A stretch of 64,000 bases of DNA from Polyangiaceae bacterium (GTDB lineage Bacteria > Myxococcota_A > Polyangia > Polyangiales > Polyangiaceae): positions 223,501 to 287,500 of the forward strand of contig JAHBVX010000001.1 in NCBI GenBank assembly GCA_019637295.1, in the 5' to 3' direction. A program made the translations under genes and the position numbers. Positions 369 through 26,598 of the stretch are shown piece after piece. Position 1 is the first letter of the stretch; every line of letters starts with the position of its first letter. Below the pieces are notes generated by a model. That model worked only from the letters and a program-made list of their open reading frames with translations. It was not told the DNA's origin and did no database searches.

Positions 369-1852
369 GTCGGCTCGAGCTCGCGGCCATCGCGAAGGCA
401 TTCGGCTCCACGCGAGCCCTCGAGGACGTGAGCCTCAGCGTCGCGCCCGGGCGCATCCACGCGCTGCTCGGCGAGAACGGCGCGGGCAAGAGCACGCTGA
501 TGCAGGTGATCGCCGGCGCCGAGCGGCCAGACCGGGGCAGCATGCGCCTCGAGGGACTGCCCTACGACCCCGTCTCGCCAGGGCAAGCGCGCGAGCGCGG
601 CGTTGCCATCGTCCATCAAGAGCTGTCCATCTGCCCGCAGCTGAACGTGCGTGAGAATGTCTTGCTCGGCGCGGAACCGACGCGTCTCGGCTTGGTCGAT
701 GCGCGGCGCGCGCGCCAGCGCACGGAGCGAGCGCTGCGGCTGCTTCGCGGAGCGGATCGCCCGCTCGACCCCGACACGCTGGTGTCCGAACTCTCACCGG
801 CGGAGCAGCAACTCGTCGAGATCGCGCGAGCGCTGGCCCACGAAGCGCCCAAGCTGCTCATCCTGGACGAGCCCACCAGCAGCCTCGGCGGCGACGACGT
901 CGAGCGGTTGTTCGCGTCGCTTCGCGCCCTGCGGGACGAGGGACTCGCCATCATCTACATCTCGCACTTCCTGGAGGAGGTGCGCCGACTGGCCGACGAC
1001 TTCACCGTGCTCCGGGACGGTCGCGCGGTGCTCTCCGGCGAGGTGCAGGCCAGCGAAGACGATGACTGGATCGCCGCCATGGTCGGGGAGAACGTCACGC
1101 AAGGCGCTGCGTCGGCGGTGCGCACGCCGGGTCGAGAGGCGCTCGGGTGTACCGGCCTCGTCTCTGCCAGCGGCCTGGCCGGCGTGGACCTGTCCCTCGC
1201 ACAAGGAGAGGTCCTGGGCATCGCGGGGCTCGTCGGCTCGGGTCGGACCGAGCTGCTCCGCGCCCTGTTCGGCCTCGAGCCCTTCAGCGCGGGGCAGGTG
1301 CGCGTACGCGGGCAGCGCGTCGTTCCCTCGCCGGCAGCTCAGCTCGCACGCGGGGTTGGCCTGCTCAGCGAAGACCGCAAGAGCGAAGGGCTCGCGCTCG
1401 CGCTCTCGGTCGCGGACAACCTCACGCTCTCGAAGCTCACTCCTTTCGGGCGCTGGGGGGTGGTGTCGCCGCGGCGGCAGCGCGGGGTCGCCGCGGCGTG
1501 GGTGGACCGTCTGCGCATTCGCTGTCGTGACGTGAGCCAACCCGCCCGCGAGCTCTCCGGCGGCAATCAGCAGAAGGTGGCGATCGCTCGCCTGCTTCAC
1601 CACGACGTGGAGGTGCTCTTGCTCGACGAGCCTACGCGCGGCGTGGACGTCTCCAGCCGCGCCGAGGTGCACGCGCTGATCGCAGACCTGGCGGCGCGCG
1701 GCAAGGCGGTGCTGATGGTCTCGAGCTCGATCTCGGAGCTGCTCGAGACCTGTGACCGCATCGCCGTCATGCGTCGGGGCGTGCTCGGGGCGCCCCGACC
1801 AGCGGGCGAGCTGAGTGAGCACGGGCTCCTGGCGGAGGCGAGCGGCGCGTGA
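365..1852 (+). CDS. Sugar ABC transporter ATP-binding protein, two ABC domains (RbsA/MglA family)
   Basis: A 495-residue tandem ATPase that powers sugar import together with the permease that follows. The N-terminal ABC domain has Walker A GENGAGKST (residues 36-44), a signature-like ELSPAEQQLVEIA and Walker B LLILDEPTSS. The C-terminal domain has the family's naturally altered P-loop (GLVGSGRTELLRALFG), a perfect LSGGNQQK signature and VLLLDEPTRGVDV. Length and domain order match RbsA/MglA. I chose the GTG at 365 because it overlaps the upstream stop as GTGA and begins right before the first strand; an in-frame GTG at 353 would add four residues. The downstream permease also starts on a GTGA overlap, so the three genes are translationally coupled. 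Confidence 0.95.
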   Translation: MSRLELAAIAKAFGSTRALEDVSLSVAPGRIHALLGENGAGKSTLMQVIAGAERPDRGSMRLEGLPYDPVSPGQARERGVAIVHQELSICPQLNVRENVLLGAEPTRLGLVDARRARQRTERALRLLRGADRPLDPDTLVSELSPAEQQLVEIARALAHEAPKLLILDEPTSSLGGDDVERLFASLRALRDEGLAIIYISHFLEEVRRLADDFTVLRDGRAVLSGEVQASEDDDWIAAMVGENVTQGAASAVRTPGREALGCTGLVSASGLAGVDLSLAQGEVLGIAGLVGSGRTELLRALFGLEPFSAGQVRVRGQRVVPSPAAQLARGVGLLSEDRKSEGLALALSVADNLTLSKLTPFGRWGVVSPRRQRGVAAAWVDRLRIRCRDVSQPARELSGGNQQKVAIARLLHHDVEVLLLDEPTRGVDVSSRAEVHALIADLAARGKAVLMVSSSISELLETCDRIAVMRRGVLGAPRPAGELSEHGLLAEASGA

Positions 1853-2793
1853 AAGCCTGGCTCGCGCGCCCCTGGTTCGGCCCCCTGGTCGCGCTCGTCG
1901 TGGTCTACCTGCTGTTCGTCTGGCTCAGCCCCGACACCTTCGCTCGCAGCGTGAACCTGTCCACCATGGCGCGGCAGACGGTGGTGGTGGCCATCGCCGC
2001 GGTGGGCATGACGTACGTGATCATCCACGGAGGCATCGACCTGTCGGTGGGTTCGGCGGTCGCGCTCACCACCGTCGTGATCGCGCGAGTGCTCGAGCGC
2101 GGCAGCGGGCCGCTCGTCGCGGTGCTGGCGGGCGTCGCCGTCGCGTCCCTCGCCGGCGCCATCAACGGGCTGCTCGTCGCCCGGCTGCGCATCACGCCCT
2201 TCATCGTGACGCTCGGCACCATGGGTGCCCTACGGGGCGCCGCCAAAGGCCTGGCCGACGAACAGAAGGTAGACGCCGATCCCTCGGGGCTCGACCAGCT
2301 CATGAGCGCGCTGTCGCCATCGAGCCCCTGGCTCTTGCCCGCGGGCGTGTGGATCGCGCTCGCGGTCGCGGGCCTCGCGGCACTCGCGCTGGGCTACACG
2401 GTCTTCGGTCGTCACGTCGTGGCCATCGGCTCGAACGTCCGCACCGCCGAGCTGTGTGGCGTACCCGTCGCGCGGGTGACCATCCTGGTGTACGCGCTCG
2501 CTGGCGCCCTCGCGGGGCTGGCCGGCGTGATGGAGTTCTCCACCTTGACCGTCGGCGATCCGACGGACTCCATCGGGCTCGAGCTGGCCGTCATCGCCGC
2601 CGTCGTGATCGGCGGCGGTTCCCTCGCCGGCGGTCAGGGCTCGATCGCCGGCGCCATGGTGGGCGCGGTCCTCATGACCGTGATCCGCACCGGCTGCACC
2701 CACGTGGGGGTTCCCAACTGGGTGCAAGAGATCCTGACCGGCGCCATCATCGTCGCCGCGGTCGGTCTCGAACGATTGAGGCGTCGCCGGTGA
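1849..2793 (+). CDS. Sugar ABC transporter permease (RbsC family)
   Basis: A 314-residue inner-membrane permease of the BPD_transp_2 family with about eight to ten hydrophobic segments. The family-typical GGIDLSVGSAVALTTVV stretch lies near residue 65, INGLLVARLRITPFIVTLG follows, and the late cytoplasmic loop has a VIGGGSLAGGQGSIAGA motif that contacts the ATPase. The GTG start overlaps the ATPase stop (1849-1852). It forms the translocation path of the importer with the two genes before it. The gene ends 6 bp from the stop of the convergent cytochrome gene; no terminator hairpin was seen in the gap. Confidence 0.95.
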   Translation: MKAWLARPWFGPLVALVVVYLLFVWLSPDTFARSVNLSTMARQTVVVAIAAVGMTYVIIHGGIDLSVGSAVALTTVVIARVLERGSGPLVAVLAGVAVASLAGAINGLLVARLRITPFIVTLGTMGALRGAAKGLADEQKVDADPSGLDQLMSALSPSSPWLLPAGVWIALAVAGLAALALGYTVFGRHVVAIGSNVRTAELCGVPVARVTILVYALAGALAGLAGVMEFSTLTVGDPTDSIGLELAVIAAVVIGGGSLAGGQGSIAGAMVGAVLMTVIRTGCTHVGVPNWVQEILTGAIIVAAVGLERLRRRR

Positions 2794-2799
2794 GCGGCC

Positions 2800-3903
2800 T
2801 CACGGAACGGCAGCCTTCGCCGGCGCGGCTGCGGTGGCCTTCATCGGATACCCCCGGTCTTCCCAGACCTTGATCCCCTCGTCGAGCACTGCGGAGCTCG
2901 CGAAGCCGCGCTCCCGCAGAGCATCCACCACCTTGCCGGAGGCGGCGTGGGGGCAGGCGCAGTAGGCCACGATGAACGTTCCATCACGAGGGAGTGCGTC
3001 GAGGATGGTGTCCACCTCGTCGTAGAAGGGCATGGGGTAAGCACCCGGGATGTGACCGCGATGCCAGTCGCTCAACGGGCGCGCGTCGAGGAGCACGATG
3101 CGCGAGCCCGCGCGCAGCGCTGCGGCCACGTCCGCTGCGGCCACGAAACGGTCGTCGCGCAGCGAAAACTTCGGCTTCGGTCCGCTCGGGTTCACGATCA
3201 GCTGAGCGAGGGATGGCAGCGCACCGGCGGTCGCTGCCCCGGGCTGCACGCTGCGCGCCCACCGGCGAATGGCGAGGGTGACGTCGTCGAGCTGCTCCGC
3301 CGTGAGCTTCTTGCCGAAAGCGGGCATCGGCGTGCCCGGTCGGCCGTGCTCGATGGCGTAGCGGATGAAGCCGTTGCTCGCGGTCGCGAGGAACGTCGGG
3401 TTGGCGAGGCTCAGCGCCGTCTTGCCCTCGCCGCTCTTGCCATGACACTCGGCGCAGTGCTCCTGATACGTCGCCGCGCCGCGCTCCGGATCGCCGTCCA
3501 GCCTCAGCTCGTGCACGTCGAGCAGCGGGCTAGGGTCGAACGAGCGCAGGTACGCGACGATGCGATCGATGTCGCCGTGGGCGAGCGGTCCGCTGTGGGC
3601 CTTTCCGAAGGCGGACATGGGCGTTCCCGGTCGCCCGCGGTCGATCGCGAGCTTCAGGAACTCGTCCGTCGCGGTGCGCAAGAACGTGGAGTTACGCAGC
3701 TGACTCGCGTTGTCCGCGGCGTAGCCGACGGCGTCCGCGCCGTGGCAGAGCGCGCAGTAGCGGTCGTAGAGCACCTTGCCGCGGCTCACCTCCTCTGGAC
3801 TCGCGGCCGCGCTCGGTGGCTTCTGGGTGCTCGCGCACGACGCAGCGCCCGCGCCGAGGCCGACGAGGAGCAGCGCGCAGGTCGTGCGGACGGCAGAGCG
3901 CAT
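2800..3903 (-). CDS. Lipoprotein: two cytochrome c domains fused to a rhodanese domain
   Basis: A 367-residue secreted protein. It has a signal peptide with a lipobox ending at Cys23, so it is probably anchored in a membrane facing the periplasm. Two class I cytochrome c modules follow: CALCH at 50-54 and CAECH near 155, each with a downstream PM(S/P)AFGK that supplies the likely Met axial ligand. After a linker comes a rhodanese-like domain (about 255-355) with a LLDARPLSDWHRGHIPGA segment and an active-site loop YCACPHAASG carrying the presumed catalytic Cys. Cytochromes move electrons and rhodanese domains carry persulfide sulfur, so a link to periplasmic sulfur-compound redox chemistry is a reasonable inference, not a demonstrated role. 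Monocistronic; faces away from the regulator at 4020. Confidence 0.88.
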   Translation of the reverse strand: MRSAVRTTCALLLVGLGAGAASCASTQKPPSAAASPEEVSRGKVLYDRYCALCHGADAVGYAADNASQLRNSTFLRTATDEFLKLAIDRGRPGTPMSAFGKAHSGPLAHGDIDRIVAYLRSFDPSPLLDVHELRLDGDPERGAATYQEHCAECHGKSGEGKTALSLANPTFLATASNGFIRYAIEHGRPGTPMPAFGKKLTAEQLDDVTLAIRRWARSVQPGAATAGALPSLAQLIVNPSGPKPKFSLRDDRFVAAADVAAALRAGSRIVLLDARPLSDWHRGHIPGAYPMPFYDEVDTILDALPRDGTFIVAYCACPHAASGKVVDALRERGFASSAVLDEGIKVWEDRGYPMKATAAAPAKAAVP

Positions 3904-3982
3904 GCCGACTGCCTACCCGACTCCCTGGGCGGCGTCAGTCGACCGCCCAACCTCTCATTCCGACTTTTCTCGCTCCACGGGG

Positions 3983-4020
3983 TTGACTCGTATCACGATG
4001 TGATACATTGTATCACGCTG
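3983..4020 (+). promoter_or_regulatory. Promoter region with two adjacent palindromic operator-like sites
   Basis: A -35-like TTGACT lies at 3983-3988 and a weak -10-like TACATT at 4004-4009. Two inverted repeats overlap this region: arms GTATCAC / GTGATAC separated by 3 bp (3990-4006), and a near copy TGTATCAC / GTGACACA separated by 3 bp (about 4010-4028) that runs across the GTG start. Such paired dyads are the usual target of ribbon-helix-helix repressors, and the gene that follows encodes one, so autoregulation is likely. Transcription starting inside the dyads would give a nearly leaderless mRNA. Confidence 0.6.
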
Positions 4021-4499
4021 TGACACAGCAAGACGAAGCACCCAAGAACCCCGAAACCGACGACCCCGAGCCCGAGAGCGACGCCGAACCCAAGAAGGAG
4101 CGAGTGCTGCACACCCGCATCCCGGCGGTGCTCGAGTCGGAGCTCAAGACGCTGGCCAAGTCCCTGCGGGTTCCCCTGTCGAACCTGGTTCGGACCATCC
4201 TCGAAGACGCGGTCAACATCGCCGACCGCGCCACGGGGCAGCTCGAAGATCGCCTCGAGCGCGCCGCCAAGAGCGTGCACGGCGAGCGGGAGCGGATGCG
4301 CGATCGGGTCAAGCGGCCCGATCCCCTCGCCGACGTGCTCGCGTTTCAAGACGTGACCGTCGCGCGCGCCACGCGCTGCGCCAAGTGTGAGACCGAGATC
4401 GCTGCGGGGGAGCGCGCGTCCCTCGCCGTGCCCGCGCATCCCGGGGATCCCCAACGGATCGTGTGTGCCGATTGCCTGACCAAGAGAGAAGGAGACTGA
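4020..4499 (+). CDS. Ribbon-helix-helix DNA-binding protein with C-terminal zinc ribbon
   Basis: A 159-residue protein in three parts. An acidic, disordered N-terminus comes first. Residues 29-65 form a ribbon-helix-helix unit (strand VLHTRIP, then two helices with LKTLAKSLRVPLSNLVRTIL). After a long charged helix come two Cys pairs (C120/C123 and C149/C152) spaced like a treble-clef or zinc-ribbon knuckle. The GTG at 4020 was chosen because a TTG at 4008 lies inside the promoter palindromes. No clear Shine-Dalgarno precedes it. Likely a DNA-binding repressor of its own operon with the 81-residue protein that follows one base after its stop. Helix-rich partners of this sort occur with polyester-granule (phasin) systems, but no polyhydroxyalkanoate gene is nearby. 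Confidence 0.7.
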   Translation: MTQQDEAPKNPETDDPEPESDAEPKKERVLHTRIPAVLESELKTLAKSLRVPLSNLVRTILEDAVNIADRATGQLEDRLERAAKSVHGERERMRDRVKRPDPLADVLAFQDVTVARATRCAKCETEIAAGERASLAVPAHPGDPQRIVCADCLTKREGD

Positions 4500-4500
4500 C

Positions 4501-4746
4501 ATGACCGCAAACCAAGTGAACGAAACCACCGAACCCAAGCTCTCCGAGCTGCTGACCTCGCTGTCCAACGTTGGCATCGCCTGGGCTCGCTACGGCTTGA
4601 CCGTTGGGCGGGTCGCGCTCGAGACCCACGCCAAGGCCCTCGACGCCACGGCCAAGGCCGTCGGCAACCTGGCAAACGCGTTGAACGAAGACGAGCCGAC
4701 CGCCAAGCCCGTCGTGAACACCGAAGGCTCCGAGCGCGCGGCCTAG
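4501..4746 (+). CDS. Small helical protein, phasin-like
   Basis: An 81-residue protein with no signal peptide. It starts one base after the regulator stop and has a strong ribosome-binding site (GAAGGAG, 7 bases before the ATG). The central part (residues 15-65) is a predicted long amphipathic helix rich in Ala, Leu, Val and Thr (SNVGIAWARYGLTVGRVALE, then HAKALDATAKAVGNLANAL), a composition seen in phasin-type granule-surface proteins and other lipid- or membrane-associated helices. Both ends are polar. It is almost certainly co-transcribed with the ribbon-helix-helix gene and under its control. The phasin likeness rests on helix pattern alone; an unrelated small envelope or stress protein is possible. 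Confidence 0.65.
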   Translation: MTANQVNETTEPKLSELLTSLSNVGIAWARYGLTVGRVALETHAKALDATAKAVGNLANALNEDEPTAKPVVNTEGSERAA

Positions 4747-4880
4747 GCTTCGCGTTCAGTGCGTGCTCGGATCTTCGGGATACGTCGGGAGTGCGAGCTC
4801 GCTGCCTGCAGCCGAGCCTTGTCTTGGATCCTCCGCGGATGACTCTGCGCACTCGGGCTCGATCGCGGGTCTAGCGCTAA

Positions 4881-5297
4881 GGCTGGCACCGGATCCACGC
4901 GATCGGCCCCGGAGTCTGGCGGCTCCCCAAGTACCCCTGGGGTTCCAACGAGCCAGGCGCGAACACGAACCTCGCAGTCTACGGCTGCCACTGGGGCCCG
5001 TCCGGCGGGTGCTGGGACACGCAAGACATCGCGCCCGTCGGCTCGGTCCCCGCGGGCAACGCGCGCTGGGGTCACGCGGACATGGCGGGCGGCATGTTCG
5101 AGTGGGCGCGAGATGCATACGGGCCCTACCCCTCGCCATGTATTGACTGCGCCCGGCTCTCCCCGCTGTCACTCGTCACGTACCGCGGAGGGTCCTTACG
5201 GGACGAACGACGTGGGCACGAGACCGCTACTCGCGTCGGCAACTCGCCTAGCGCGGCCGATGACCACCGCGGTGTGCGTTGCGCCCGCGTGCCGTGA
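4881..5297 (+). pseudogene. Remnant of a SUMF1/formylglycine-generating-enzyme-like gene, C-terminal half
   Basis: The frame is open from 4881 (just after an in-frame TAA) to a TGA at 5295 and has no plausible start. The translation carries the hallmarks of the last 130 or so residues of SUMF1-fold proteins: LPKYPWGSNEPGANTNLAVY, IAPVGSVPAGNARWGHAD, MAGGMFEWARDAYG, RGGSLRDE and the terminal GVRCARVP. The N-terminal half, signal peptide and promoter are missing, so it is a truncated remnant. The bases just before it (4747-4880) hold no gene; read on the minus strand they end in PEDPSTH, like the tail of the hydrolase at 8352, and may be another decayed end. Confidence 0.75.
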
Positions 5298-8351: not shown

Positions 8352-10586
8352 TCAGTGGCTGTTCGGATCTTCGGGATCCGTGCCACTCTCGACTTCGACG
8401 TCGTCGGTCACTCCGTCGGCGTCGAAGTCTTGTCGGGCCGGCGCGGTGACGATCACGCGCGCCGGCCCCTGCGCGGCGGTGGTGAGGAAGGTCACGAGCT
8501 GAACGCAGTGCTCGCGCACCGGCAGCTCGAAGGTGAACGGCGCGGGCAGCAGTGGGAAGCGATCGTCGCCGGGCTGCGGCAGGTCTTTGATGAACTCCCG
8601 CAGGTCCCAGCGCGCGTAGCCGAGGGCGTGGTTGGCGGGACCGTACTCCACCGCTACGCCAGTTCGGCCTGCGATGTTCGCCGAGGCCGGCGCGGCCACG
8701 TCGAGCACGCCGGGCATGGGGATGAAGTGCGGCCCGGCGCGCTCGAGCCCGAGCGCGCGCACGAGCGCGATGGTGGCCGCGTTGGGGAGCACCTCGTCGT
8801 GCGCCGCGTAGGTCACGAGCACGTCCGGTGGCGCGTGGCCAGCGAAGGGCTCCAAGAGCACGTGCGGCGCGTAGGCGGCCGGATCGCCCGCTTCGGTGAT
8901 GGCGCCGAGCAGGAGCGCCACCGGGTGAAACTCGTCCAGGTCGTCGTCATCACCCACGATGCCAAACGTGCCCTTCGCGATGCTCGTGACCAGCGGCGCC
9001 ACCTTGGCGGACTGAGTCGTGATCAGCTGCACGAAGGCGGCGCCCGGGACGTGCAGCGCGAAGCCGCGAATGTGGGGCTCCACCGCCGCCGTCATGGTGC
9101 CCATGATCCCCCCGAGGGACCCGCCGCTCCAGTAGATGCGCGAAGGATCGAGCTTGGGAACCACCCCGCCGGTGTGCTCGGCCAAGAACGTCAGATCGAG
9201 CTTCGGGTTCTCGATCAAGCGCACGAGGCTGACCTGATCCAGGATGGTCTGGCGGAAGTTGTCGCGCACGATGACGAAGTCACCGAAGGCCGCGAAGAAC
9301 GCGACGGGCAGCGGCTTCTCGTCGGGGATGCCGTCCGGGCCTTGGAAGCTGCCCTTGTAGTTGTTCTTCGTGTCGACGATGCCGCCCCGCGCGCCGTGCA
9401 GGACGTCGTCGATGCCGATCACCGCGAAGCCCGCGCGGGCCAGCTCGTTGGCCGTGGACAGCATGCTGCCTCGATCGTTGGACAAGCCGTGGCCGTTGAT
9501 GACGACGGGGTAGCCCGACGGCGGCGGGGGCGCAGCGGGAAGCACCAGCGTCACCGGGATGGTCGCCGTTGGATTCGCGAGCAGGTACTTGTCGCCGCCG
9601 TCGCGCTCGAAGTGCTTCGACTGTGCGTCCAGGTAGCTGGGCGCGACGAACGCCGCCGAGAGCACGACGCCGATCTGGTCGTGCGCGATCCCACCAGGGT
9701 TGTCACCGCCGGGCCACTGCGCTGCGGCCTCGTCCGTCTCCGGCGTGCCCAGCCACTCGGTGAGGGTCGGGCTCTCGCTGCGCCCAAAGACAGCCACGGT
9801 GTAGGGCTTGGCCGCGTCCGGATCGACGATCAGCGAGGGCGCGGCGAGCTTGCGCAGTTCGTTGCGAAGCGCGGGTAGCTCGTAGACTCGGCGCGAGGTC
9901 GTGAACACCGCCAGGCTCGCGACCTCGCTCGCGCTCGTGACGCCGCCAGTCGCCACCAGCGCGTCGAGGGCGTCGCCGTACAGCTTCTCGACGCGGGTGC
10001 TGCGCTCCGCCGTCGTGAGCGTCGCGATGGCGCGCAGCGCGGGTGCCGCGCGCAGGCTGCGCCCGCTGGTCGTACGCACTCGCGATGTCAATACGGCGGC
10101 ATGCCTCACGCCGGGAGGCAGCACCACGCCGGGGACCGGGATCACCGCGACGGAGCCGAAGGTGGGTTGAGCCTTGGCGATGGCCGGGTAGCGCACCCCG
10201 CGCTTGGGCGAGTCCGGATCGACGTCGACGATCAGCACGGAGGGATGCTCGCCGACCGCGTCGTCCCAGGCCCTGGGCAGCGTGGCCGGGTCGACCGAGT
10301 CGCCCACGAAGAACACCGCGCCCGTCGAGCGTCCAAAGCCATCAAGCTCCGACAAGCCGCGCTGCAGCGTCGTCTCGTTGGACGCGACCCGCGCGATGCC
10401 CGGCACGCTGCCCACGGTGCCCGCTGCGCTGAGGTACAGATCGCTCGGCCACGGGATGTCGCCGAAGGGCGTCGCGGTCCCCTCGGCGGCAGGCTCGAAG
10501 GGCACCTCGTACTCCTCCGCCAAGCCTTCGTCCTGACCGCAGCCCACGAGCGCGAGCATGCCCAGGAGTACGAGTACATGGCGCAT
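8352..10586 (-). CDS. Alpha/beta-hydrolase (lipase/esterase-like) lipoprotein
   Basis: A 744-residue exported protein. The start ATG at 10586 gives a compact signal peptide with lipobox LALVGC; an upstream in-frame ATG at 10619 would only lengthen the n-region. The N-terminal third resembles the bacterial virulence-factor lipase N-terminal domain (FGDIPWPSDLYL and repeated beta strands). The hydrolase core has YPVVINGHGLSNDRGSML (oxyanion region), the nucleophile elbow SGGSLGG with Ser in G-x-S-x-G, an acid in TYAAHDEVLP and the catalytic His in GPANHALGY. The C-terminus is a single thrombospondin-3-like Ca-binding motif (DFDADGVTDDVEVESGTDPE). Probably a surface esterase or lipase; the substrate is unknown. 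Confidence 0.88.
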   Translation of the reverse strand: MRHVLVLLGMLALVGCGQDEGLAEEYEVPFEPAAEGTATPFGDIPWPSDLYLSAAGTVGSVPGIARVASNETTLQRGLSELDGFGRSTGAVFFVGDSVDPATLPRAWDDAVGEHPSVLIVDVDPDSPKRGVRYPAIAKAQPTFGSVAVIPVPGVVLPPGVRHAAVLTSRVRTTSGRSLRAAPALRAIATLTTAERSTRVEKLYGDALDALVATGGVTSASEVASLAVFTTSRRVYELPALRNELRKLAAPSLIVDPDAAKPYTVAVFGRSESPTLTEWLGTPETDEAAAQWPGGDNPGGIAHDQIGVVLSAAFVAPSYLDAQSKHFERDGGDKYLLANPTATIPVTLVLPAAPPPPSGYPVVINGHGLSNDRGSMLSTANELARAGFAVIGIDDVLHGARGGIVDTKNNYKGSFQGPDGIPDEKPLPVAFFAAFGDFVIVRDNFRQTILDQVSLVRLIENPKLDLTFLAEHTGGVVPKLDPSRIYWSGGSLGGIMGTMTAAVEPHIRGFALHVPGAAFVQLITTQSAKVAPLVTSIAKGTFGIVGDDDDLDEFHPVALLLGAITEAGDPAAYAPHVLLEPFAGHAPPDVLVTYAAHDEVLPNAATIALVRALGLERAGPHFIPMPGVLDVAAPASANIAGRTGVAVEYGPANHALGYARWDLREFIKDLPQPGDDRFPLLPAPFTFELPVREHCVQLVTFLTTAAQGPARVIVTAPARQDFDADGVTDDVEVESGTDPEDPNSH

Positions 10587-19273: not shown

Positions 19274-20794
19274 TCACTGCAGGGCGATGAGGAGCGCCGT
19301 CACGACGCCGCCCGCGCCGGCGTAGACGAGGCAGAGCAGCAGGGTGGCGCGCATCACCTGGCCTTCGCGTCCAGACGCGAGCCCGACGGTCGCGGCACCG
19401 GCGATGATGTTGTGCGGGCTGATGATGTTGCCGATGGCGGCCCCGAAGTTCTGCGCGCCCAGCAGCGGCGCCACCGGCATACTCAGTGTCAGCGCCGTGG
19501 CCTGCTGAAACTCGGCGAAGAGAATGTTCGACGACGTGGCGGAGCCGGTGATGAAGGCGCCCAGCACGCCGATGAAGGGCGCGACCAGCGGCCAACCCGA
19601 GCCGATCGCGGCGGCTGCTGCTGCGAGGGCGTCGGTCATGCCGGCGTGCACCAGGATGCGCGAGAGGCCCAGCATCGCGGCGAGGGCGACCAGCACGAGG
19701 GTCAGGCGTCTTGCCGCGCCCGCCATCGCGGCGATCAGCTCGGCCCGGGTGCGCCCCTGCAGCGCGCCTCCCAGCAAGAAACCCGCGAAGAGGAGCGTTC
19801 CGGGGTGATACAGCGGCTCGAGCTTGCCGGAGAAGGCGCCCATCAGGGTCCAGTGCCAGCTGGCCTCGCGCATTAGGCTTCGGAGCGGCGGTATCAAGCG
19901 CGACGCCAGGATGAGCAAGAGCAGGACGAGGTAGGGCAGGACGGCCTTGATGACGTCGCGGAGGAGAGTGCCCTCGCGCTGGCTGACGTCGCTGCGCCCG
20001 CGCCCACTCGGACGGCTCCGCAGGATCACTGCGAAGACCGTGCCGCCGATGAGTGCGGCGCCGAGGGCAGGGAGCTCGGGTCCCACGACGGTGGCGACGG
20101 CGAAGTAGGGGACGAAGAACGATACCGCAGCCAGGGCGGGCCAGCGCCAGTCAAGAAGGCGGGGCCGCTCGGGTGCGGACATCACGAACAGGACGGCGAC
20201 TAGCATCCAGCCCAGGACGGCGTGGGGGAGCGCCGACGCGCGCGCCAGAGCGACGCCGGACTCCGTGGCGGCCAGCAGGGGCAGGACCGGCGTGCCGATC
20301 GCGCCGAAGGAGACACCGGCGGCATGGCCGATCAGGGCGAGCGTCACTGCGCGCACCGGAGTGAAGCCAAGTCCGACGAGGATCGGCGCGGCCAGCGCGA
20401 CCGGCGTGCCGAAGCCCGCAACACCCTCCATGAACAATCCAAAGAACCAAGCTACCAGCAGCACCAAGATGCGGGGATCCTCCGACAGGCGCGACAGGGC
20501 GCGCTGGAGCACGTCGAAGGCGCCCGAGCGCTGCTGCAGCTCGTAGATGCAGAGCGCGGGGAAGATGATCCAGAGAATGCTCGCGGTGGTGAAGAGGGCC
20601 TCGGCCATCGCGCCACCCACGGCCAGCGCCGGACCGAGCTGCGGGTAGGTCTGGCTGCCGAGGCCGAAGACGCCGACACCGAGGACCAGCGCGGTCGCCA
20701 GGCCCAGGAGGCCCGCGCTGGCGGCGCGCCAGTGAAGGCCGGCCAGCGCGACGATGACCAGCGCGATGGGGATCGAGGCCAGGAGCGCGTGCAT
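19274..20794 (-). CDS. lctP: L-lactate permease family transporter
   Basis: A 506-residue polytopic membrane protein of the lactate permease (LctP/LldP) family with about 12-14 hydrophobic helices. Family-typical segments are ILWIIFPALCIYELQQRSGA, LFMEGVAGFGTPVALAAPIL, LALIGHAAGVSFGAIGTPVL and, near the end, FIGVLGAFITGSATSSNILF and GAAIGNIISPHNIIAGAATV, the last holding the conserved NxxSPHN loop. It takes up lactate (or glycolate) with protons. It starts 7 bp after the stop of a D-2-hydroxyacid dehydrogenase gene, so uptake and oxidation or formation of lactate are in one operon. Confidence 0.92.
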   Translation of the reverse strand: MHALLASIPIALVIVALAGLHWRAASAGLLGLATALVLGVGVFGLGSQTYPQLGPALAVGGAMAEALFTTASILWIIFPALCIYELQQRSGAFDVLQRALSRLSEDPRILVLLVAWFFGLFMEGVAGFGTPVALAAPILVGLGFTPVRAVTLALIGHAAGVSFGAIGTPVLPLLAATESGVALARASALPHAVLGWMLVAVLFVMSAPERPRLLDWRWPALAAVSFFVPYFAVATVVGPELPALGAALIGGTVFAVILRSRPSGRGRSDVSQREGTLLRDVIKAVLPYLVLLLLILASRLIPPLRSLMREASWHWTLMGAFSGKLEPLYHPGTLLFAGFLLGGALQGRTRAELIAAMAGAARRLTLVLVALAAMLGLSRILVHAGMTDALAAAAAAIGSGWPLVAPFIGVLGAFITGSATSSNILFAEFQQATALTLSMPVAPLLGAQNFGAAIGNIISPHNIIAGAATVGLASGREGQVMRATLLLCLVYAGAGGVVTALLIALQ

Positions 20795-20801
20795 GGTCGG
20801 C

Positions 20802-21815
20802 TCAGCGGTGGGGTGCGATCTTCTCGACTGAGATCTCGTGCACGGCCCGACCGGACTGGCCGTACGCGGTGATGTTCGCGAGGGTGGTGCGCGCGATCTG
20901 GGTCAGCGCTTCACGCGTGAAGAAGGCCTGGTGGCCGGTGATCAGCACGTTGGGGAAGGTCAGCAGGCGCGCGAAGACGTCGTCCTGGATGACCTTCGCG
21001 GAGAGGTCCTCGAAGAACAGGTCGGCCTCTTCCTCGTAGACATCGAGGCCCAGGCTGCCGATCACGCCCTCTTTCAGCCCCCGGATGACGGCGCGGGTGT
21101 CGATCACGGCGCCGCGGCTGGTGTTGATCAGCATCACGCCAGGCTTGAGTCTGCGCAGGGTGCTGGCGCCGATCAGGTGGTGGGTCTCGGGGGTCAGGGG
21201 GCAGTGCAGCGACAGGATGTCGGAGCGCGCGAAGATCTCGTCGCGTGAGACGTAGTCCATGCCGAGGTCCGTGCACACGGGATTGGGCGCGATGTCATGG
21301 CCGAGAAGCGTGCAGCCGAAACCGACGAGGATGCGCGCCAGCACCTCGCCAATCTTTCCAGTCCCGATGACGCCGACGGTCTTGCCCTGCAGATCGAAGC
21401 CGAGCAGCCCCTCGAGGGCAAAGTTGCCTTCCCGGACGCGGTTGTAGGCGCGGTGGATGTTGCGATTCAGCGCCAAGATCAGCGCGACGGTGTGTTCGGC
21501 GACGGCATGCGGGGAGTAAGCCGGCACGCGGGCGACGGTGAGCCCGAGCTCCCGGGCGGCGGCGAGATCGACGTGGTTGAACCCGGCGCTGCGCAGGGCG
21601 AGGAGGCGGACGCCGCTCGCGGCCAGGGCTTCGAGTACCGGGCGGCTGCAGTCGTCATTGACGAACGCACAGACGACCTTCGAGCCTTGGGCGAGCGCGG
21701 CGCTCTCGGGTGAGAGGCGCATTTCGAGGAATCGGAGGTCGTGGCCCCCGTCGGCGTTCGCAGCCTCTAGGAACTGGCGATCGTAGGGCTTGGTGCTGAA
21801 GACGCTCACTCTCAT
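20802..21815 (-). CDS. ldhA: D-2-hydroxyacid dehydrogenase, D-lactate dehydrogenase type
   Basis: A 337-residue NAD-dependent dehydrogenase that interconverts pyruvate and D-lactate (or a related 2-hydroxyacid). It begins [17 protein letters not shown], as LdhA proteins do. The NAD-binding domain shows [20 protein letters not shown]; the catalytic Arg lies in [19 protein letters not shown], the Glu in [16 protein letters not shown] and the His in TGHQAFFT. The length is normal. ATG 21815 was chosen over an in-frame start 46 codons upstream because it matches the family N-terminus. Followed after 7 bp by the lactate permease gene. Confidence 0.9.
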
Positions 21816-21846
21816 GGGTACACTCTGCGCAGACTCCTCGCGCGGC

Positions 21847-22962
21847 TCAACTCGGTGGAGTGCAGCGGAAGTCTTCGTCGATCGTGATGGCCTTTCCGTC
21901 ATCCGGCAGCCCCGCGTCGGGATCGACGGGAGTCCCCCTGGGCAGCCAGGCACTCAGCGCGGGCCAGGCGAGCTGCAGGTTTCGCCAACCTCCGCGACTG
22001 GCGGGCTCGATGTGGACCCACGACGTCCGGGAGCGCTTCAGCGCGCCGATCACGTCACCGCCGGGGGCGTCGTACAGGCAGCTGCCCGCGTCGAAGCGCA
22101 GGCGCTCGCGTGGCTCCGGAGCTCGCACCCCGAACCCGGCGCTGCCGAAACCGACGGGGTCGAGCGCGAGGAGCTGCTGCCGCGCGACGAACCCTCGAAC
22201 CCGGAGCACCGCCGACTCGTAGACGACCTCGTGAAACCAACCCACGGTCCCGAGTTGAGTCACGTAGCGCGGTGGGTGCGCGTCCCTGTCGAAGCTCGCG
22301 CTCCTGAATCCACCGGGTCGGACGCGCAGCGTCGCGCCCGGCGCTAGGTGCCAACCCCGAGAGGACGCCTTCGAACCCGGCAAGGAGGTCGGGACGTTCG
22401 TCGCCGGTGGGAGAGGCCCCGGCGCGTAGACGTGGCCCAGAGCGGCGGACTCCATGAAGCCAAACGCGCGGAGGTGGCCGTCGACCGCGACTACGTCGAC
22501 GTGATCGCCCCGTGCTTCGCGACGCTCGATGATGGCGCCGGGTGCGACCATGGCTCCGGTCGATGCGGAGGTCTCGCTGGGCTTCTGCCGAAGCTCGGCG
22601 ACGCGGACTGCCACTTCACGGAGCTCGGCGTACCCGAGCCACACCGCCACCCGAAAGTCGGGGCGATCGATGGCGAGACGTGCGCGAGAGTCACCCTCCT
22701 CGAGCACCACGTCGCTGCGTCGCTGCAGGTCCGCGGCGACGTAGGCCCGTCTCGTGAAGCGTGCCTCGAAGCCCTCGGCGAGGAGCGCAAACACGGGTGG
22801 TGCGGGGCTCGCGGGTCTGGTCGACGCGCTCGCGTCTTCGAGGCCATGCGTGACCATCGGCTCCAAGGCGGCGGGCGGCGGAGGCGGACTCGGGTTGTCG
22901 CGAGAGCGCGGCGCGGGGGCACAGGCGATGGTCAAGCAGACCGGGAGCACACGTCCGAGCAC
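21847..22962 (-). CDS. Lipoprotein of unknown function
   Basis: About 371 residues with a lipobox ([10 protein letters not shown]) followed by a Pro-rich linker ([12 protein letters not shown]). The mature part is beta-rich with short conserved-looking turns ([91 protein letters not shown]); the last resembles SH3b-like repeats that bind peptidoglycan, without certainty. GTG 22962 gives the most compact signal peptide; ATG 23001 is an alternative. Divergent from the EamA transporter. Confidence 0.65.
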
Positions 22963-23074
22963 GGCGGATACGCTACAGGCATCCGCTCCTGGCGCAAGCA
23001 TCGAAGCGGTCCATGTCTGCTTCCCACGCCTAGATGGTATGCGAAGCTCAGCGAGCCCCATTCACTCCAATGCC

Positions 23075-23923
23075 ATGACGCCGCGCACTGCGCTTCTCAC
23101 CGCCGTCGCGATGGTGGCGTTCGCCACCAACTCGCTGCTCTGCCGCGCGGCGCTCGGCGCCGAGCGGATCGATGCGGCGAGTTTCGCCAGTGTGCGGGTG
23201 ATCTCCGGCGCGGTCGCGTTGCTGGTCATCCTCGCGCTCCGCGATCGCCGCCCGGCACTGCCCAAGGCCGACTGGCGCATGGTGGCGGCGCTGTTCGCCT
23301 ACGTCGCGTTCTTCTCCTTCGCCTACATCTGGCTCAGCGCTGGCACCGGCGCGCTTCTGCTGTTCGGCGCCGTGCAGCTCACCATGTTCGCCGTCGCGCT
23401 TCATGGCGGCGAGCGCTTCACCGCTCTGTCGTGGGTCGGCTTCGCCGCAGCGCTCCTGGGGCTGGTCTGGTTGGTCGCGCCGGGCGTCACCGCGCCGGAT
23501 GCCATCGGTGCGGCGCTGATGGTCGTCGCCGGGATCGCCTGGGGCGCCTATTCGCTGCTCGGGCGGGGCGCAGCCGATCCGCTCGCAGCCACCGCCAGCA
23601 ATTTCGCCCACGCCGTGCCGCTGGTCGCCGTCGTCAGCCTGGTCTTCTGGCGGGACTTCGACATCTCGGCACGCGGGGTCGCGCTCGCCGTCGTCTCTGG
23701 GGCGCTGGCGTCGGGCTGCGGCTATGTCATCTGGTACGCAGCGCTCCGCGGCCTGACCGCCACCCGCGCCGCCACCGTGCAGCTGTCGGTGCCTGCGATT
23801 GCGGCGCTCGGCGGCGTCCTCTTGATATCCGAAGAGCTGACCCTTCGCCTCATGGTCGGTTCGGCGGCCACCATCGGCGGCGTCGCGATGGTGCTCTCCC
23901 AGCGGGCGGCGAAACGCGTGTAA
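23075..23923 (+). CDS. EamA/DMT-family transporter
   Basis: A 282-residue membrane protein with ten hydrophobic helices arranged as two EamA repeats: repeat one with MVAFATNSLLCRAALGAERI and AYIWLSAGTGALLLFGAVQL, repeat two with GIAWGAYSLLGRGAADPLAA and VIWYAALRGLTATRAATVQL, SVPAIAALGGVLLI. Members export metabolites or amino acids (drug/metabolite transporter superfamily). ATG 23075 begins right at the first helix. Substrate unknown. It may share a promoter region with the cysteine-rich peptide gene 69 bp downstream, but there is no overlap. Confidence 0.9.
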   Translation: MTPRTALLTAVAMVAFATNSLLCRAALGAERIDAASFASVRVISGAVALLVILALRDRRPALPKADWRMVAALFAYVAFFSFAYIWLSAGTGALLLFGAVQLTMFAVALHGGERFTALSWVGFAAALLGLVWLVAPGVTAPDAIGAALMVVAGIAWGAYSLLGRGAADPLAATASNFAHAVPLVAVVSLVFWRDFDISARGVALAVVSGALASGCGYVIWYAALRGLTATRAATVQLSVPAIAALGGVLLISEELTLRLMVGSAATIGGVAMVLSQRAAKRV

Positions 23924-23992
23924 GGCCATCGTCCGCCGTGCGTCTGCTGTTCATGACGCGGCAGAAGCCGCCCCAGAATCGGAGAATCCACC

Positions 23993-24148
23993 ATGAATCA
24001 CGCCAAAGACTGCCCTTGTAGCCCCCGCGCCAACACCGGTGCTTGCCCTTGCGGCCCGAGCTGCCCCTGTGGGCCCGACTGCGGCTGTCCGGGCGGCTGT
24101 GACGGTGCCCGTCGCCGCCACGACCGGGACCTGGCACACTGGGCATGA
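23993..24148 (+). CDS. 51-residue metallothionein-like Cys-rich peptide
   Basis: A short gene with a GGAG ribosome-binding site 8 bases before its ATG. The product has nine Cys at positions 7, 9, 18, 20, 24, 26, 30, 32 and 36, forming four C-x-C pairs (CPC, CPC, CPC, CGC) with Gly/Pro between, plus His3, His43 and His49 in a basic tail. It has no signal peptide. The spacing and composition are those of a metal-thiolate cluster peptide. Its stop is 3 bp before the start of an ECF sigma factor that itself ends in a Cys cluster, so the two form a metal-linked operon. Zn, Cu or Cd binding is inferred from the Cys pattern only. Confidence 0.75.
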   Translation: MNHAKDCPCSPRANTGACPCGPSCPCGPDCGCPGGCDGARRRHDRDLAHWA

Positions 24149-24151
24149 ACC

Positions 24152-24739
24152 ATGAGCGCGCTCGACGACCACTCTGAGTCGATGAGCTCGGGCCCTGCGC
24201 TCGATGCGACCGCCGTCCACACGTTGGTCGGGTCGCATCGAGCGTTGCTCGCGTTCATCGAGAGCCGGGTCGGTAGCCGTGCCCTGGCGGAGGACATCCT
24301 GCAGGATGCGTTCGTGCGCGGCTTGACCCGGAGCGACGACGTGGAGTCCACGGTCGCGTGGTTCTATCGCGTGCTCCGCAATGCGATCATCGACCGCGCG
24401 CGCCGGCAGGGAGCGGAACGACGTGCGCTCGATGCCTTCGCGCGCGAGCTCGGGGACGCGACCGTTGGGCCCGTCGAGGCACGACAAACGGCCTGCCAGT
24501 GCTTGCTCTCTCTTGCCCAGACGCTCGAGCCCAGCTACCGGAGCGCGATTCAGCGGGTGGACGTGGAGGGCCAGAGCGTCAAGGAGTTCGCCTTGGCCGA
24601 GGGCATCTCGGACAACAACGCCTCGGTGCGCCTGCACCGCGCGCGCCGCGCCTTGCGCAAACGCGTCATGCAGAGCTGCGGGACATGCGCCCAGCACGGC
24701 TGCCTGGATTGCCACTGCGGAGCAGCGGCCCCTCGCTGA
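24152..24739 (+). CDS. ECF-type RNA polymerase sigma factor with Cys-rich C-terminal tail
   Basis: A 195-residue sigma-70-family protein. Region 2 covers about residues 25-95 (FIESRVGSRALAEDILQDAF and VAWFYRVLRNAIIDRARR) and region 4 about 115-170 (LEPSYRSAIQRVDVEGQSVK, EGISDNNASVRLHRARRALR). The tail after region 4 is CGTCAQHGCLDCHC: five Cys and two His in 14 residues, with two further Cys between regions 2 and 4. Cys-rich C-termini let CorE-type ECF factors of myxobacteria sense copper, cadmium or zinc directly without an anti-sigma factor, and none is encoded here. With the metallothionein-like gene just upstream, metal-responsive control is the likely role. Confidence 0.85.
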   Translation: MSALDDHSESMSSGPALDATAVHTLVGSHRALLAFIESRVGSRALAEDILQDAFVRGLTRSDDVESTVAWFYRVLRNAIIDRARRQGAERRALDAFARELGDATVGPVEARQTACQCLLSLAQTLEPSYRSAIQRVDVEGQSVKEFALAEGISDNNASVRLHRARRALRKRVMQSCGTCAQHGCLDCHCGAAAPR

Positions 24740-24835
24740 GCAACCGAAGCCTGGCTACTTGACGGCTGCGCGAGGCGCGCACCCTGCGGTGGCTTCAGCG
24801 CCGCAGTGCGGTGCGCCCCGCGTTTCCGCGTCGCG

Positions 24836-25717
24836 CTAACAACCCTCCGGTCGCCAGCCCGCCTGGTAGTCACCGTAGTTCGAGACGTACTTGTTGATGA
24901 AGTTCGAGCAGGTGGGGTTCGAGCGATGAATGCAGTCGAAGTCGTGGTCGATCTCGAGCATGTGCGGGTCGCTCGGGAGATCGATGGGGCCGCGCTTGAC
25001 CGGGACCGCGGAGCCGTCTTGGAAGAAGTGGGCCTGCGCGGTGGGCGGCTTGGACCCGGAGGTCTCGATCAGCAGCGTGCAGCGCAGGCCCGTCTCGGTC
25101 TCGTTGCTGGCGTCGAAGGGCGAGTGGGGCCCGGCGATGTCAGCGGTCTTGGCCCAGAACGCTCCGCCGCCGTCGGTGACCGAGGTCGTGCCCTGCCAGG
25201 TAGTGACCATGTGCTGCCAGAGATAGGCGGACATGGACAGGAACAGGCGATTGTTCTCGCTGCCGCCGCAGGTGCTGCCGTCGTTGCCGCCGCCGCGGAT
25301 GAGCCACAGCTTCGTCATGTGCTCCAGCATGGACGCGCCGTCCGGCGTCTTGGAGAGGAACAGACGGTGGGTGAGCGTGAGGAACACTTCCCGCTCGCTC
25401 GCGTTCAGCCCGTCCCACGCCGCGCAGGTGTCACTGGAAGCGTACCCGGAGTAGAGCGCCTGGCGAAGGGACGACAACGTCGCGGGCACAGCGGCGTCTG
25501 CAGGCGCACCCGCCGCTGCTGCGCTGCCGCCACTGCCGCCGCTCGCTGCTGCGCTGCCGCCCGCTCCGCTGCTCGCGTCGGCTCCCCCATTGCCGCCGAG
25601 ACCGCCCGCGTCCGCAGCGCTGCCGCCCTTGCCGCCCGCAGCCGCTATCGGTTCGCTCGACTCGCCGCAAGCGGCGAACAGTAGGGACGACAACACCGCG
25701 GTCAGTGCAGCTCTCAC
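24836..25717 (-). CDS. Lipoprotein with Gly/Ala-rich linker, unknown function
   Basis: A 293-residue exported protein with a lipobox (LLFAACGES) and a long low-complexity Gly/Ser/Ala linker (residues 25-78). The globular part has six or more Cys and segments such as DTCAAWDGLNASEREVFLTL, LFLSMSAYLWQHMVTTWQGT, ETGLRCTLLIETSG and HFFQDGSAVPVKR, ending NYGDYQAGWRPEGC. Family not recognised; the linker-plus-domain layout is common among myxobacterial surface lipoproteins. Convergent with the sigma-factor gene. Confidence 0.75.
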   Translation of the reverse strand: MRAALTAVLSSLLFAACGESSEPIAAAGGKGGSAADAGGLGGNGGADASSGAGGSAAASGGSGGSAAAAGAPADAAVPATLSSLRQALYSGYASSDTCAAWDGLNASEREVFLTLTHRLFLSKTPDGASMLEHMTKLWLIRGGGNDGSTCGGSENNRLFLSMSAYLWQHMVTTWQGTTSVTDGGGAFWAKTADIAGPHSPFDASNETETGLRCTLLIETSGSKPPTAQAHFFQDGSAVPVKRGPIDLPSDPHMLEIDHDFDCIHRSNPTCSNFINKYVSNYGDYQAGWRPEGC

Positions 25718-25860: not shown

Positions 25861-26556
25861 TCACTCGGTCGCGTGGACGCGCGAGCACACGGCCTTGTAG
25901 CCCATGTCGCAGGCGCGCTGCAGATACTTCGCGGCGCGCGTCGCGTCCTTCGGGAGCCCCTCGCTCCCGCTGCGATACATGAAGCCCAGGTTCGAACAGC
26001 CCTCGGCCACGCCGGCCTCGCAGTCGCGCTCGGACAGCGCCGCAGCCGCGCGGAACGCCTTCGCGGCCGCAGCGCGATCCGGCGAGGTGCCAACGCCGTC
26101 GCGATGACCGCGCCCCAGGTTGCGACACGCCAGCGCGTGCTTCGCGTCGCAGTTGCGACGATAGAGCTCGAGCGCGCGGGCCGCGTCCACCGGGCGGCCC
26201 TCTCCCTTCTCCAGCACGACAGCGAGGTTGTTGCAGCCGCGGAGCTCGCCCAGGTCGCAGGCGCGCTCGTACAGGTCCGCGGCGCGTACCGGGTCTTGCG
26301 GCAAGCCGTGGCTTCCGTTCGCGTAGCTGACCCCCACCGCGAGGCATCCGCTTCCGCTCCGCTGCTCGCACGCTTCCCAGGCCGCGCGCGCAGCCGGCGT
26401 CACGTTGTCTGACAGCTCTGTCGCCGCAGGTTCGGCGGGCGTGGCAGCTTCCGCTCCCGCCACCGGCGCCGCACCCGGCGGCGCATCCGGAGGGGAGGGC
26501 GCGCGCGGAACGCATCCAAGCCCGTTCGCAGCGAACCAGAGCAAGAGGAAGCGCAT
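25861..26556 (-). CDS. Sel1-repeat lipoprotein
   Basis: A 231-residue protein with a signal peptide and lipobox (FAANGLGCVP), a Pro/Ala linker and at least four Sel1-like repeats containing the A-x-x-Y/L-x-x-x-C pattern: AADLYERACDLGELRGCNNL, ALELYRRNCDAKHALACRNL, the AAALSERDCEAGVAEGCSNL unit and AAKYLQRACDMGYKAVCSRV. Two Cys per repeat probably form disulfides, as in periplasmic Hcp/Sel1 proteins. Likely a protein-protein scaffold at the envelope. ATG 26556 starts the signal peptide directly; an ATG 12 codons upstream is less likely. Confidence 0.82.
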   Translation of the reverse strand: MRFLLLWFAANGLGCVPRAPSPPDAPPGAAPVAGAEAATPAEPAATELSDNVTPAARAAWEACEQRSGSGCLAVGVSYANGSHGLPQDPVRAADLYERACDLGELRGCNNLAVVLEKGEGRPVDAARALELYRRNCDAKHALACRNLGRGHRDGVGTSPDRAAAAKAFRAAAALSERDCEAGVAEGCSNLGFMYRSGSEGLPKDATRAAKYLQRACDMGYKAVCSRVHATE

Positions 26557-26598
26557 GTGACTCGGTTTCTGGGGTTGGGATGCGGGGGTCATGTGAAG

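Follow-up and report, generated by a model that had tools for sequence, protein, structure and literature searches.

What is an open reading frame of only 51 codons, nine of them for cysteine, doing directly in front of a sigma factor gene, and does its product take part in the response that the sigma factor controls? The question arises from the window analysed here, a stretch of 64,000 nt from a member of the Polyangiaceae. An initial annotation had read the two genes as a compact metal module in which a thiolate peptide is made together with a CorE-type ECF sigma factor. The features of the pair and its surroundings are the following.

21847-23061: neighbouring open reading frame without a Pfam family
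ending at 23923, + strand: EamA transporter gene (Pfam), upstream of the pair
23919-23944, + strand: predicted CorE-type promoter (-35 TGTAA at 23919-23923, 17-nt spacer, -10 CGTC at 23941-23944)
23981-23985, + strand: ribosome-binding site GGAGA of the peptide gene, assigned by sequence
23993-24148, + strand: gene of a metallothionein-like peptide of 51 aa with nine Cys and the core CPCGPSCPCGPDCGC
24152-24739, + strand: CorE-like ECF sigma factor gene, 195 aa, with sigma-2, sigma-4, linker CxC and C-terminal Cys-rich domain
24494-24502, + strand: linker CxC, Cys115-Gln-Cys117, a CorE-like signature
24677-24718, + strand: core of the Cys-rich domain, C-x2-C-x4-C-x2-C-x-C, Cys176/179/184/187/189
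24836-25717, - strand: gene downstream of the pair, 293 aa, no Pfam family
25861-26592, - strand: gene of a Sel1-repeat protein (Pfam), downstream

The two genes and their products

The peptide with nine cysteines and four C-x-C pairs is encoded where it had been described: between the end of its stop codon, at 24148, and the start of the sigma gene, at 24152, lie 3 nt. Since the EamA gene lies upstream and the genes downstream are on the opposite strand, the pair looks like an isolated two-gene operon, and the peptide and sigma genes would presumably be transcribed together. Further away, a D-lactate-dehydrogenase-like gene and, after a gap of 7 nt, a lactate-permease-like gene were recognised by eye at 19274-21953 (-).

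The sigma factor matches Sigma70_r2 (PF04542, 3.5e-10) and Sigma70_r4_2 (PF08281, 7e-9), both above the cut-offs, and consists of sigma-70 regions 2 and 4 only, as ECF factors do. The group to compare it with is formed by CorE (MXAN_3426) and CorE2 of Myxococcus xanthus and the CorE-like factors (former ECF44, partly ECF238), for which excerpts of the literature were used. According to these, a CxC in the linker between sigma-2 and sigma-4 is a CorE-like signature (PMC8999054). The tail, CGTCAQHGCLDCHC, carries cysteines at positions 176, 179, 184, 187 and 189, spaced exactly as Cys181, Cys184, Cys189, Cys192 and Cys194 of CorE. Residues 181, 184, 192 and 194 are reported as invariant in the excerpted CorE study (PMC3107203); their equivalents in the window protein are Cys176, Cys179, Cys187 and Cys189, and its Cys184 corresponds to CorE Cys189. 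The sole tail cysteine of CorE without an equivalent, and thus the point where the window sigma factor differs from it, is Cys206, the mutation of which had little effect and left the response nearly normal (PMC3107203, same excerpt).

The initial annotation was right in calling this a CorE-type factor with a Cys-rich tail, as the five-Cys spacing and the linker CxC both indicate. Its view of the tail as an unusual, short version did not hold: the tail is the five-Cys core of CorE with only the Cys206 equivalent gone, and it is the norm of the family, since the pattern CxxC-x7-CxC occurs in 140 of 165 homologous loci, all 140 of which also have the Cys189 equivalent and the linker CxC. The idea that extra cysteines beyond the tail core replace the peptide was likewise dropped, such cysteines showing no association with the peptide (11 of the 35 loci that have it upstream or nearby versus 29 of 105, p 0.67). 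The homologue in a M. xanthus strain (L009) is 56% identical to the window sigma factor over the matched part, and was taken as CorE because its tail cysteines are spaced as all six CorE residues. A Pfam scan of the four neighbours in the window gave no linked anti-sigma gene. CorE and the window sigma factor, as far as CorE is covered by the excerpts, have in common the sigma-2 and sigma-4 regions, the lack of a linked anti-sigma gene, the linker CxC and the five-Cys tail spacing. Every feature of the CorE-like group (former ECF44) that was tested on the sequence is present; the window sigma factor is CorE-like, and metal-dependent activation is predicted for it.

The peptide has its cysteines at positions 7, 9, 18, 20, 24, 26, 30, 32 and 36. 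With 51 aa, 18% Cys and four CxC it has the small, Cys-rich character of metallothioneins. An alignment of 33 hand-chosen peptides, for which later starts were used where the upstream ATG was doubtful, gave the consensus CxCGxxCxCGxxCxCxxxCxC, and the aligned relatives are 22-60 aa long. The best Pfam match of the window peptide is PF01439 with an E of 6.2 and 8.3 bits (cut-off 23), NCBIfam gave nothing at E up to 1, and the relatives tested (nine against Pfam, ten against NCBIfam) matched no family at E up to 10. As the described metallothionein families are not matched, the peptide is called metallothionein-like and is not placed in a named family. A profile of the peptides matched two structures in the PDB, 2KAK (EC protein) at E 0.0017 and 6QK5 (cadmium-metallothionein) at E 0.084, which we take to be metallothioneins of wheat and snail. 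They share the CxC/CGxxCxC layout with the peptide; the matches are weak and partly explicable by Cys composition, and the likeness is probably convergent. From this layout the peptide would be expected to bind metal through its thiolates. Codon differences within four close pairs of peptides, counted over 24-26 codons as synonymous/non-synonymous, are 1/0, 5/4, 4/4 and 4/3, numbers too small to prove selection.

Recurrence of the pair

Conservation of the short frame upstream of homologous sigma genes had been set beforehand as the point on which the proposal could fail. Homologous loci came from a contig search, from 235, 347, 346 and 294 sampled genomes of four phylum-level groups, and from the window's own family, of which 108 genomes were searched; nearly all belong to collections that carry no annotation. 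Matches to the sigma factor were found, at the cut-offs used, in 12/235, 35/347, 11/346 and 9/294 of the sampled genomes and in 53/108 of the own family. The 187 loci hold 168 distinct sigma sequences, of which 165 with at least 400 nt upstream were counted and three dropped. A peptide was scored as an ORF of 18-70 aa starting with ATG, with at least six Cys, at least 15% Cys and at least two CxC. In 37 of the 165 loci, the window included, such an ORF ends just upstream of the sigma match, so the frame is kept. The pair occurs in three phylum-level groups: 14 of these loci belong to the window's own group, taken to be Myxococcota, 16 stem from one locus named Acidobacteria and the genomes sampled around it, and seven from loci named Gemmatimonadetes/Gemmatimonadales and the genomes sampled around one of these. 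The full tail motif is present in 27 of the 37. In eight loci (L026, L127, L134, L160, L168, L197, L200 and L202) the peptide start is probably set too far upstream.

High-GC DNA holds many spurious ORFs, and the tree resolves no peptide-bearing sister of the window sequence, which stands as one instance only; the sigma gene could thus be an ordinary CorE-like one and the ORF in front of it a product of chance or of annotation. The counts make this hardly credible. Among the first 97 loci, 26 have the peptide ORF, against a background of 0.0017 per locus (per 360 nt), which derives from the four ORFs that pass the criterion in the rest of these loci, 865,980 strand-bases beyond the test interval; three of these four (L011, L018 and L094) themselves resemble such peptide genes near a sigma gene. 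In upstream regions simulated with a first-order Markov model 4/9,700 pass. The control, 30 of 34 weakly matching loci with ECF factors that are not CorE-like (L051, L054, L055 and L080 were left out), gave 0/30. A promoter motif and a Shine-Dalgarno (SD) sequence at the right distance, described below, and a second such ORF beside a paralogous sigma gene in the same genome point the same way.

This second pair (L002/L213, on contig C7) encodes a peptide of 56 aa with 14 Cys, again with the promoter motif in front. In L213 (G000:C7:20000-38000) peptide and sigma genes lie at about 8538-9292, divergent from a MerC-family gene. The sigma factor is 34-36% identical to that of the window, and its tail has no equivalent of CorE Cys184; the same is true of other members of this second sigma clade. 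A profile search of the own genome at E up to 1 found these two peptide genes only, both beside a sigma gene and both rows of the profile.

The peptide need not be in this place. Directly upstream of the sigma gene it is absent in 128 of the 165 CorE-like loci, including the M. xanthus CorE homologue, and a relaxed criterion applied to the 128 gave six matches, none convincing by eye. Eight more loci have a displaced peptide ORF nearby, divergent in L156, L162 and L164, downstream in L011, L094, L174 and L186, and downstream on the other strand in L018. On a FastTree tree of 156 sigma sequences no fewer than 10 changes are required to explain the peptide label (32.6 in shuffles), and well-supported branches force at least four of them, so that the pair has been gained or lost repeatedly. 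The tree leaves out nine of the 165 rows: eight with broken, cut or run-on sigma frames, among them L046, which has a peptide, and the non-CorE row L051. Of the five rows nearest to the window sigma factor by path, three lack the peptide, one carries it displaced and one has it directly upstream; the factor's own placement is poorly supported. A profile search of the 108 same-family genomes gave 25 peptide matches, 14 of them beside a CorE-like gene. Eleven of these 14 are rows of the search profile, and a strict linkage of peptide and sigma factor was rejected, as among the 14 matches that are not profile rows only three adjoin a sigma gene.

Some further loci were noted in passing. In L160, from the window's genus, two Cys-rich peptide ORFs stand in tandem in front of a single CorE-like sigma gene. 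Five same-family ORFs (L252, L255, L262, L267 and L270) have, by eye, a signal-peptide-like start and CPCGxxCPCG-like repeats at the end; they have neither a CorE-type motif nor a sigma link and are possibly a family of exported thiolate peptides.

Metal-handling genes of another type seem to take the place of the peptide. In the examined flanks an HMA-type motif (chaperone or ATPase) was found at 0/37 peptide loci versus 22/128 others, and within 1.4 kb at 0/37 versus 15/128 (Fisher p 0.024, kinship ignored). The first of these comparisons suggests that peptide and HMA proteins are alternatives. The locus of the M. xanthus CorE homologue differs from the window in having an HMA-type gene and no such peptide. 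Three plasmid records of Candidatus Manganitrophus have a sigma factor with 37.9% identity, and in one of them the CDS before the sigma gene is annotated as 'cation transporter'.

A promoter motif shared with metal-handling genes

The initial annotation had looked to a promoter motif of the sigma factor as a check, and a model-free search for two-block motifs returned one: TGTAA-N17/18-CGTC precedes the peptide gene in 28 of the 37 loci, while the best two-block motif of one shuffled set reached 5/37. The consensus is gTGTAAtg ... gCGTCaGC. The strict motif is missing in nine loci, six of which (L107, L110, L114, L119, L122 and L123) have near-variants. In the window the -35 element overlaps the EamA stop codon, and 48 nt separate the -10 motif from the ATG; the range in the 28 motif-bearing loci is 4-79 nt, where the shortest distances probably come from ORFs that in truth begin at a later ATG. 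Among peptide-free loci, no more than 7/128 have the motif in front of the sigma gene, versus the 28/37 (Fisher p 1.5e-17, kinship ignored), so autoregulation appears as a feature of the peptide-bearing subset; in the peptide-free loci the motif is often found just past the end of the sigma gene. One of 30 control ECF loci has it. In front of seven of the eight displaced peptide ORFs it begins 33-72 nt upstream. In the window the sigma gene is thus second in the predicted operon, behind a peptide gene with a CorE-type promoter, which is a further difference from CorE as far as the excerpts describe it.

A Cys-rich uORF directly upstream of a regulated gene also brings to mind a leader, in which stalling of ribosomes on Cys codons at low cysteine would control whether the sigma gene is translated or transcribed. 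Regulatory Cys-rich sORFs are known as a class from mycobacteria, according to an excerpted source (PMC9094748), and the window RNA at 23950-24190 folds somewhat better than shuffles (z -1.93, 8/200 as good); this fold and a search of 23700-24900 against Rfam, without a match at the gathering threshold, lend attenuation no clear support. The polycysteine leaders, as described in that excerpt, resemble the window ORF in being short, Cys-rich and placed directly upstream of the regulated gene, but the window-type peptides have spaced CxCG units, a promoter motif and SD of their own, and copies away from the sigma start. Their residue pattern is conserved, with cysteines spaced and not in long runs. 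An SD-like word stands 18 to 4 nt before the peptide ATG in 28/37 loci, compared with 19% at random positions. Nor is the start leaderless in the window, where the ATG lies behind the -10 motif at the distance given and is preceded by GGAGA. The divergent and downstream copies, seven of eight motif-led, cannot lead a sigma gene, although they are relatives and not the window copy, and in the window a gap of 3 nt has no room for an intergenic terminator. A role as leader is therefore quite improbable.

What else stands behind the motif was asked of the same loci, the window excepted. Of the motif sites, 36 are followed within 130 nt by a peptide-like ORF, 68 by an ORF of 60 aa or more and three by a shorter one. 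Sixty of the 68 were scanned (seven sigma ORFs and one duplicate were taken out, one sigma-domain ORF stayed, and some are probably out of the true reading frame), and gave 23 HMBD, 21 E1-E2 ATPase, 13 YHS and 12 HMA domains. The ORFs behind the motif are largely those of metal ATPases and HMA proteins, and metal-handling genes thus stand behind the same motif as the peptide-sigma pair. In the own genome the motif precedes a gene with HMBD and E1-E2 ATPase domains. At this locus, L222, two divergent CorE-type motifs about 70 nt apart lie before the metal-ATPase gene and a gene of a 300-aa protein without a Pfam family, the two occupying 1736-2635 (-) and 2900-5107 (+).

In M. xanthus the predicted promoter type of the window is found before an HMA-type gene adjoining the CorE homologue. 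The gene encodes 74 aa with an HMA motif and, by position and type, would be MXAN_3427. MXAN_3427 has an HMA domain and loses its copper induction in a corE deletion, and the rapid induction of copA is lost in a corE mutant, as reported in the excerpted CorE paper (PMC3107203). The motif would in this way be tied to CorE by published experiments, through the position and type of the gene. Two more motif sites occur on the contig of the M. xanthus CorE gene. Behind the motif in this species there are also two genes that look by eye like those of an HMA-bearing ATPase and a cation-efflux protein.

The motif by itself does not predict a regulon. The bare motif occurs 19 times in the own genome versus 26 for the reversed control and 20 versus 45 times in M. 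xanthus, and a longer pattern with two mismatches 168 versus 238 times in the own genome. As there is no excess over the reversed control in either genome, single sites are weak, only the gene context speaks, and genome-wide prediction by motif alone was abandoned.

A possible function of the peptide

The reading we favour, with a probability of roughly 0.6, is that the two genes form an operon which regulates itself and responds to metal, most likely copper, and that the thionein encoded first drains metal from the sigma factor. Metal would bind to the C-terminal Cys-rich domain and render the sigma factor active, and the active factor would direct RNA polymerase to TGTAA-N17-CGTC promoters. 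Its own operon, with the peptide gene first, and the metal-ATPase efflux gene elsewhere in the genome would then be fired. The peptide, as a cytosolic thionein, would take up excess metal and so contribute to detoxification, and by draining the Cys-rich domain of the sigma factor it would close a negative feedback loop. As CorE depends on metal and the neighbours scanned include no anti-sigma gene, a thionein produced alongside should tend to switch the response off, and we infer that the peptide probably shuts off the sigma factor. The sequences themselves give the two genes, the CorE-type Cys layout, the recurrence of the pair in three phylum-level groups, the common motif and the metal-handling genes behind it; copper as the metal, as well as the feedback, is putative. 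The compact metal module of the initial annotation, with its thiolate peptide gene directly before the sigma gene, is supported.

It is also possible, and to our judgement less probable, that the peptide is only another detoxification product of the CorE regulon and leaves sigma activity untouched. The peptide gene has the promoter of the regulon just as the ATPase and HMA genes do, displaced copies exist, only three of the 14 non-profile-row matches from the 108 same-family genomes adjoin a CorE-like gene, and in L260 and L265 the peptide ORF has a motif-like site while the examined flank holds no sigma gene. On the other hand, the ORF is directly upstream of the sigma gene in 37 of the 165 loci, as are both copies in the own genome, though both are profile rows, and removal of free metal should lower the activity of a metal-activated sigma factor whether selected for or not.

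The opposite extreme is a peptide that serves as a dedicated off-switch and takes copper from the Cys-rich domain of the sigma factor by ligand exchange, which we regard as rather unlikely. If true, the peptide would do with thiolates what an anti-sigma factor does, and since one message would encode both products, shut-off would keep pace with synthesis of the sigma factor. The need for it would be greatest in the second sigma clade, where the tail reads CGTTSxRACxDCxC and the equivalent of CorE Cys184 is missing; Cys184 was clearly required for inactivation of CorE according to the excerpted study (PMC3107203). Six of the 11 sequences that match this tail pattern have the peptide directly upstream.

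The favoured operon of thionein and sigma factor resembles MymT, the copper metallothionein of Mycobacterium tuberculosis, in that MymT, too, is small and rich in Cys, is encoded by an ORF that had escaped annotation and belongs to a copper regulon (PMC7558416, PMC10141476). By the descriptions in excerpts of these sources, on which the comparison is based, MymT differs in being under RicR, a CsoR homologue, and not under a metal-activated sigma factor. CorE-like factors and metallothioneins are already known, and what would be new is a thionein-like family co-encoded with the sigma factor under a CorE-type promoter. Among the matches listed in a search of mainly open-access literature, none showed a CorE-like gene with a peptide or metallothionein gene next to it.

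In the excerpted CorE paper the factors acting upstream of CorE and the trafficking of metal to it are left as open questions (PMC3107203). The recurrent, co-encoded thionein is a concrete candidate for a metal-handling partner of CorE-like sigma factors. With it come a type of peptide to which the Pfam and NCBIfam scans assigned no family, and a promoter motif by which, if gene context is considered too, CorE-type regulons of uncultured bacteria become easier to predict.
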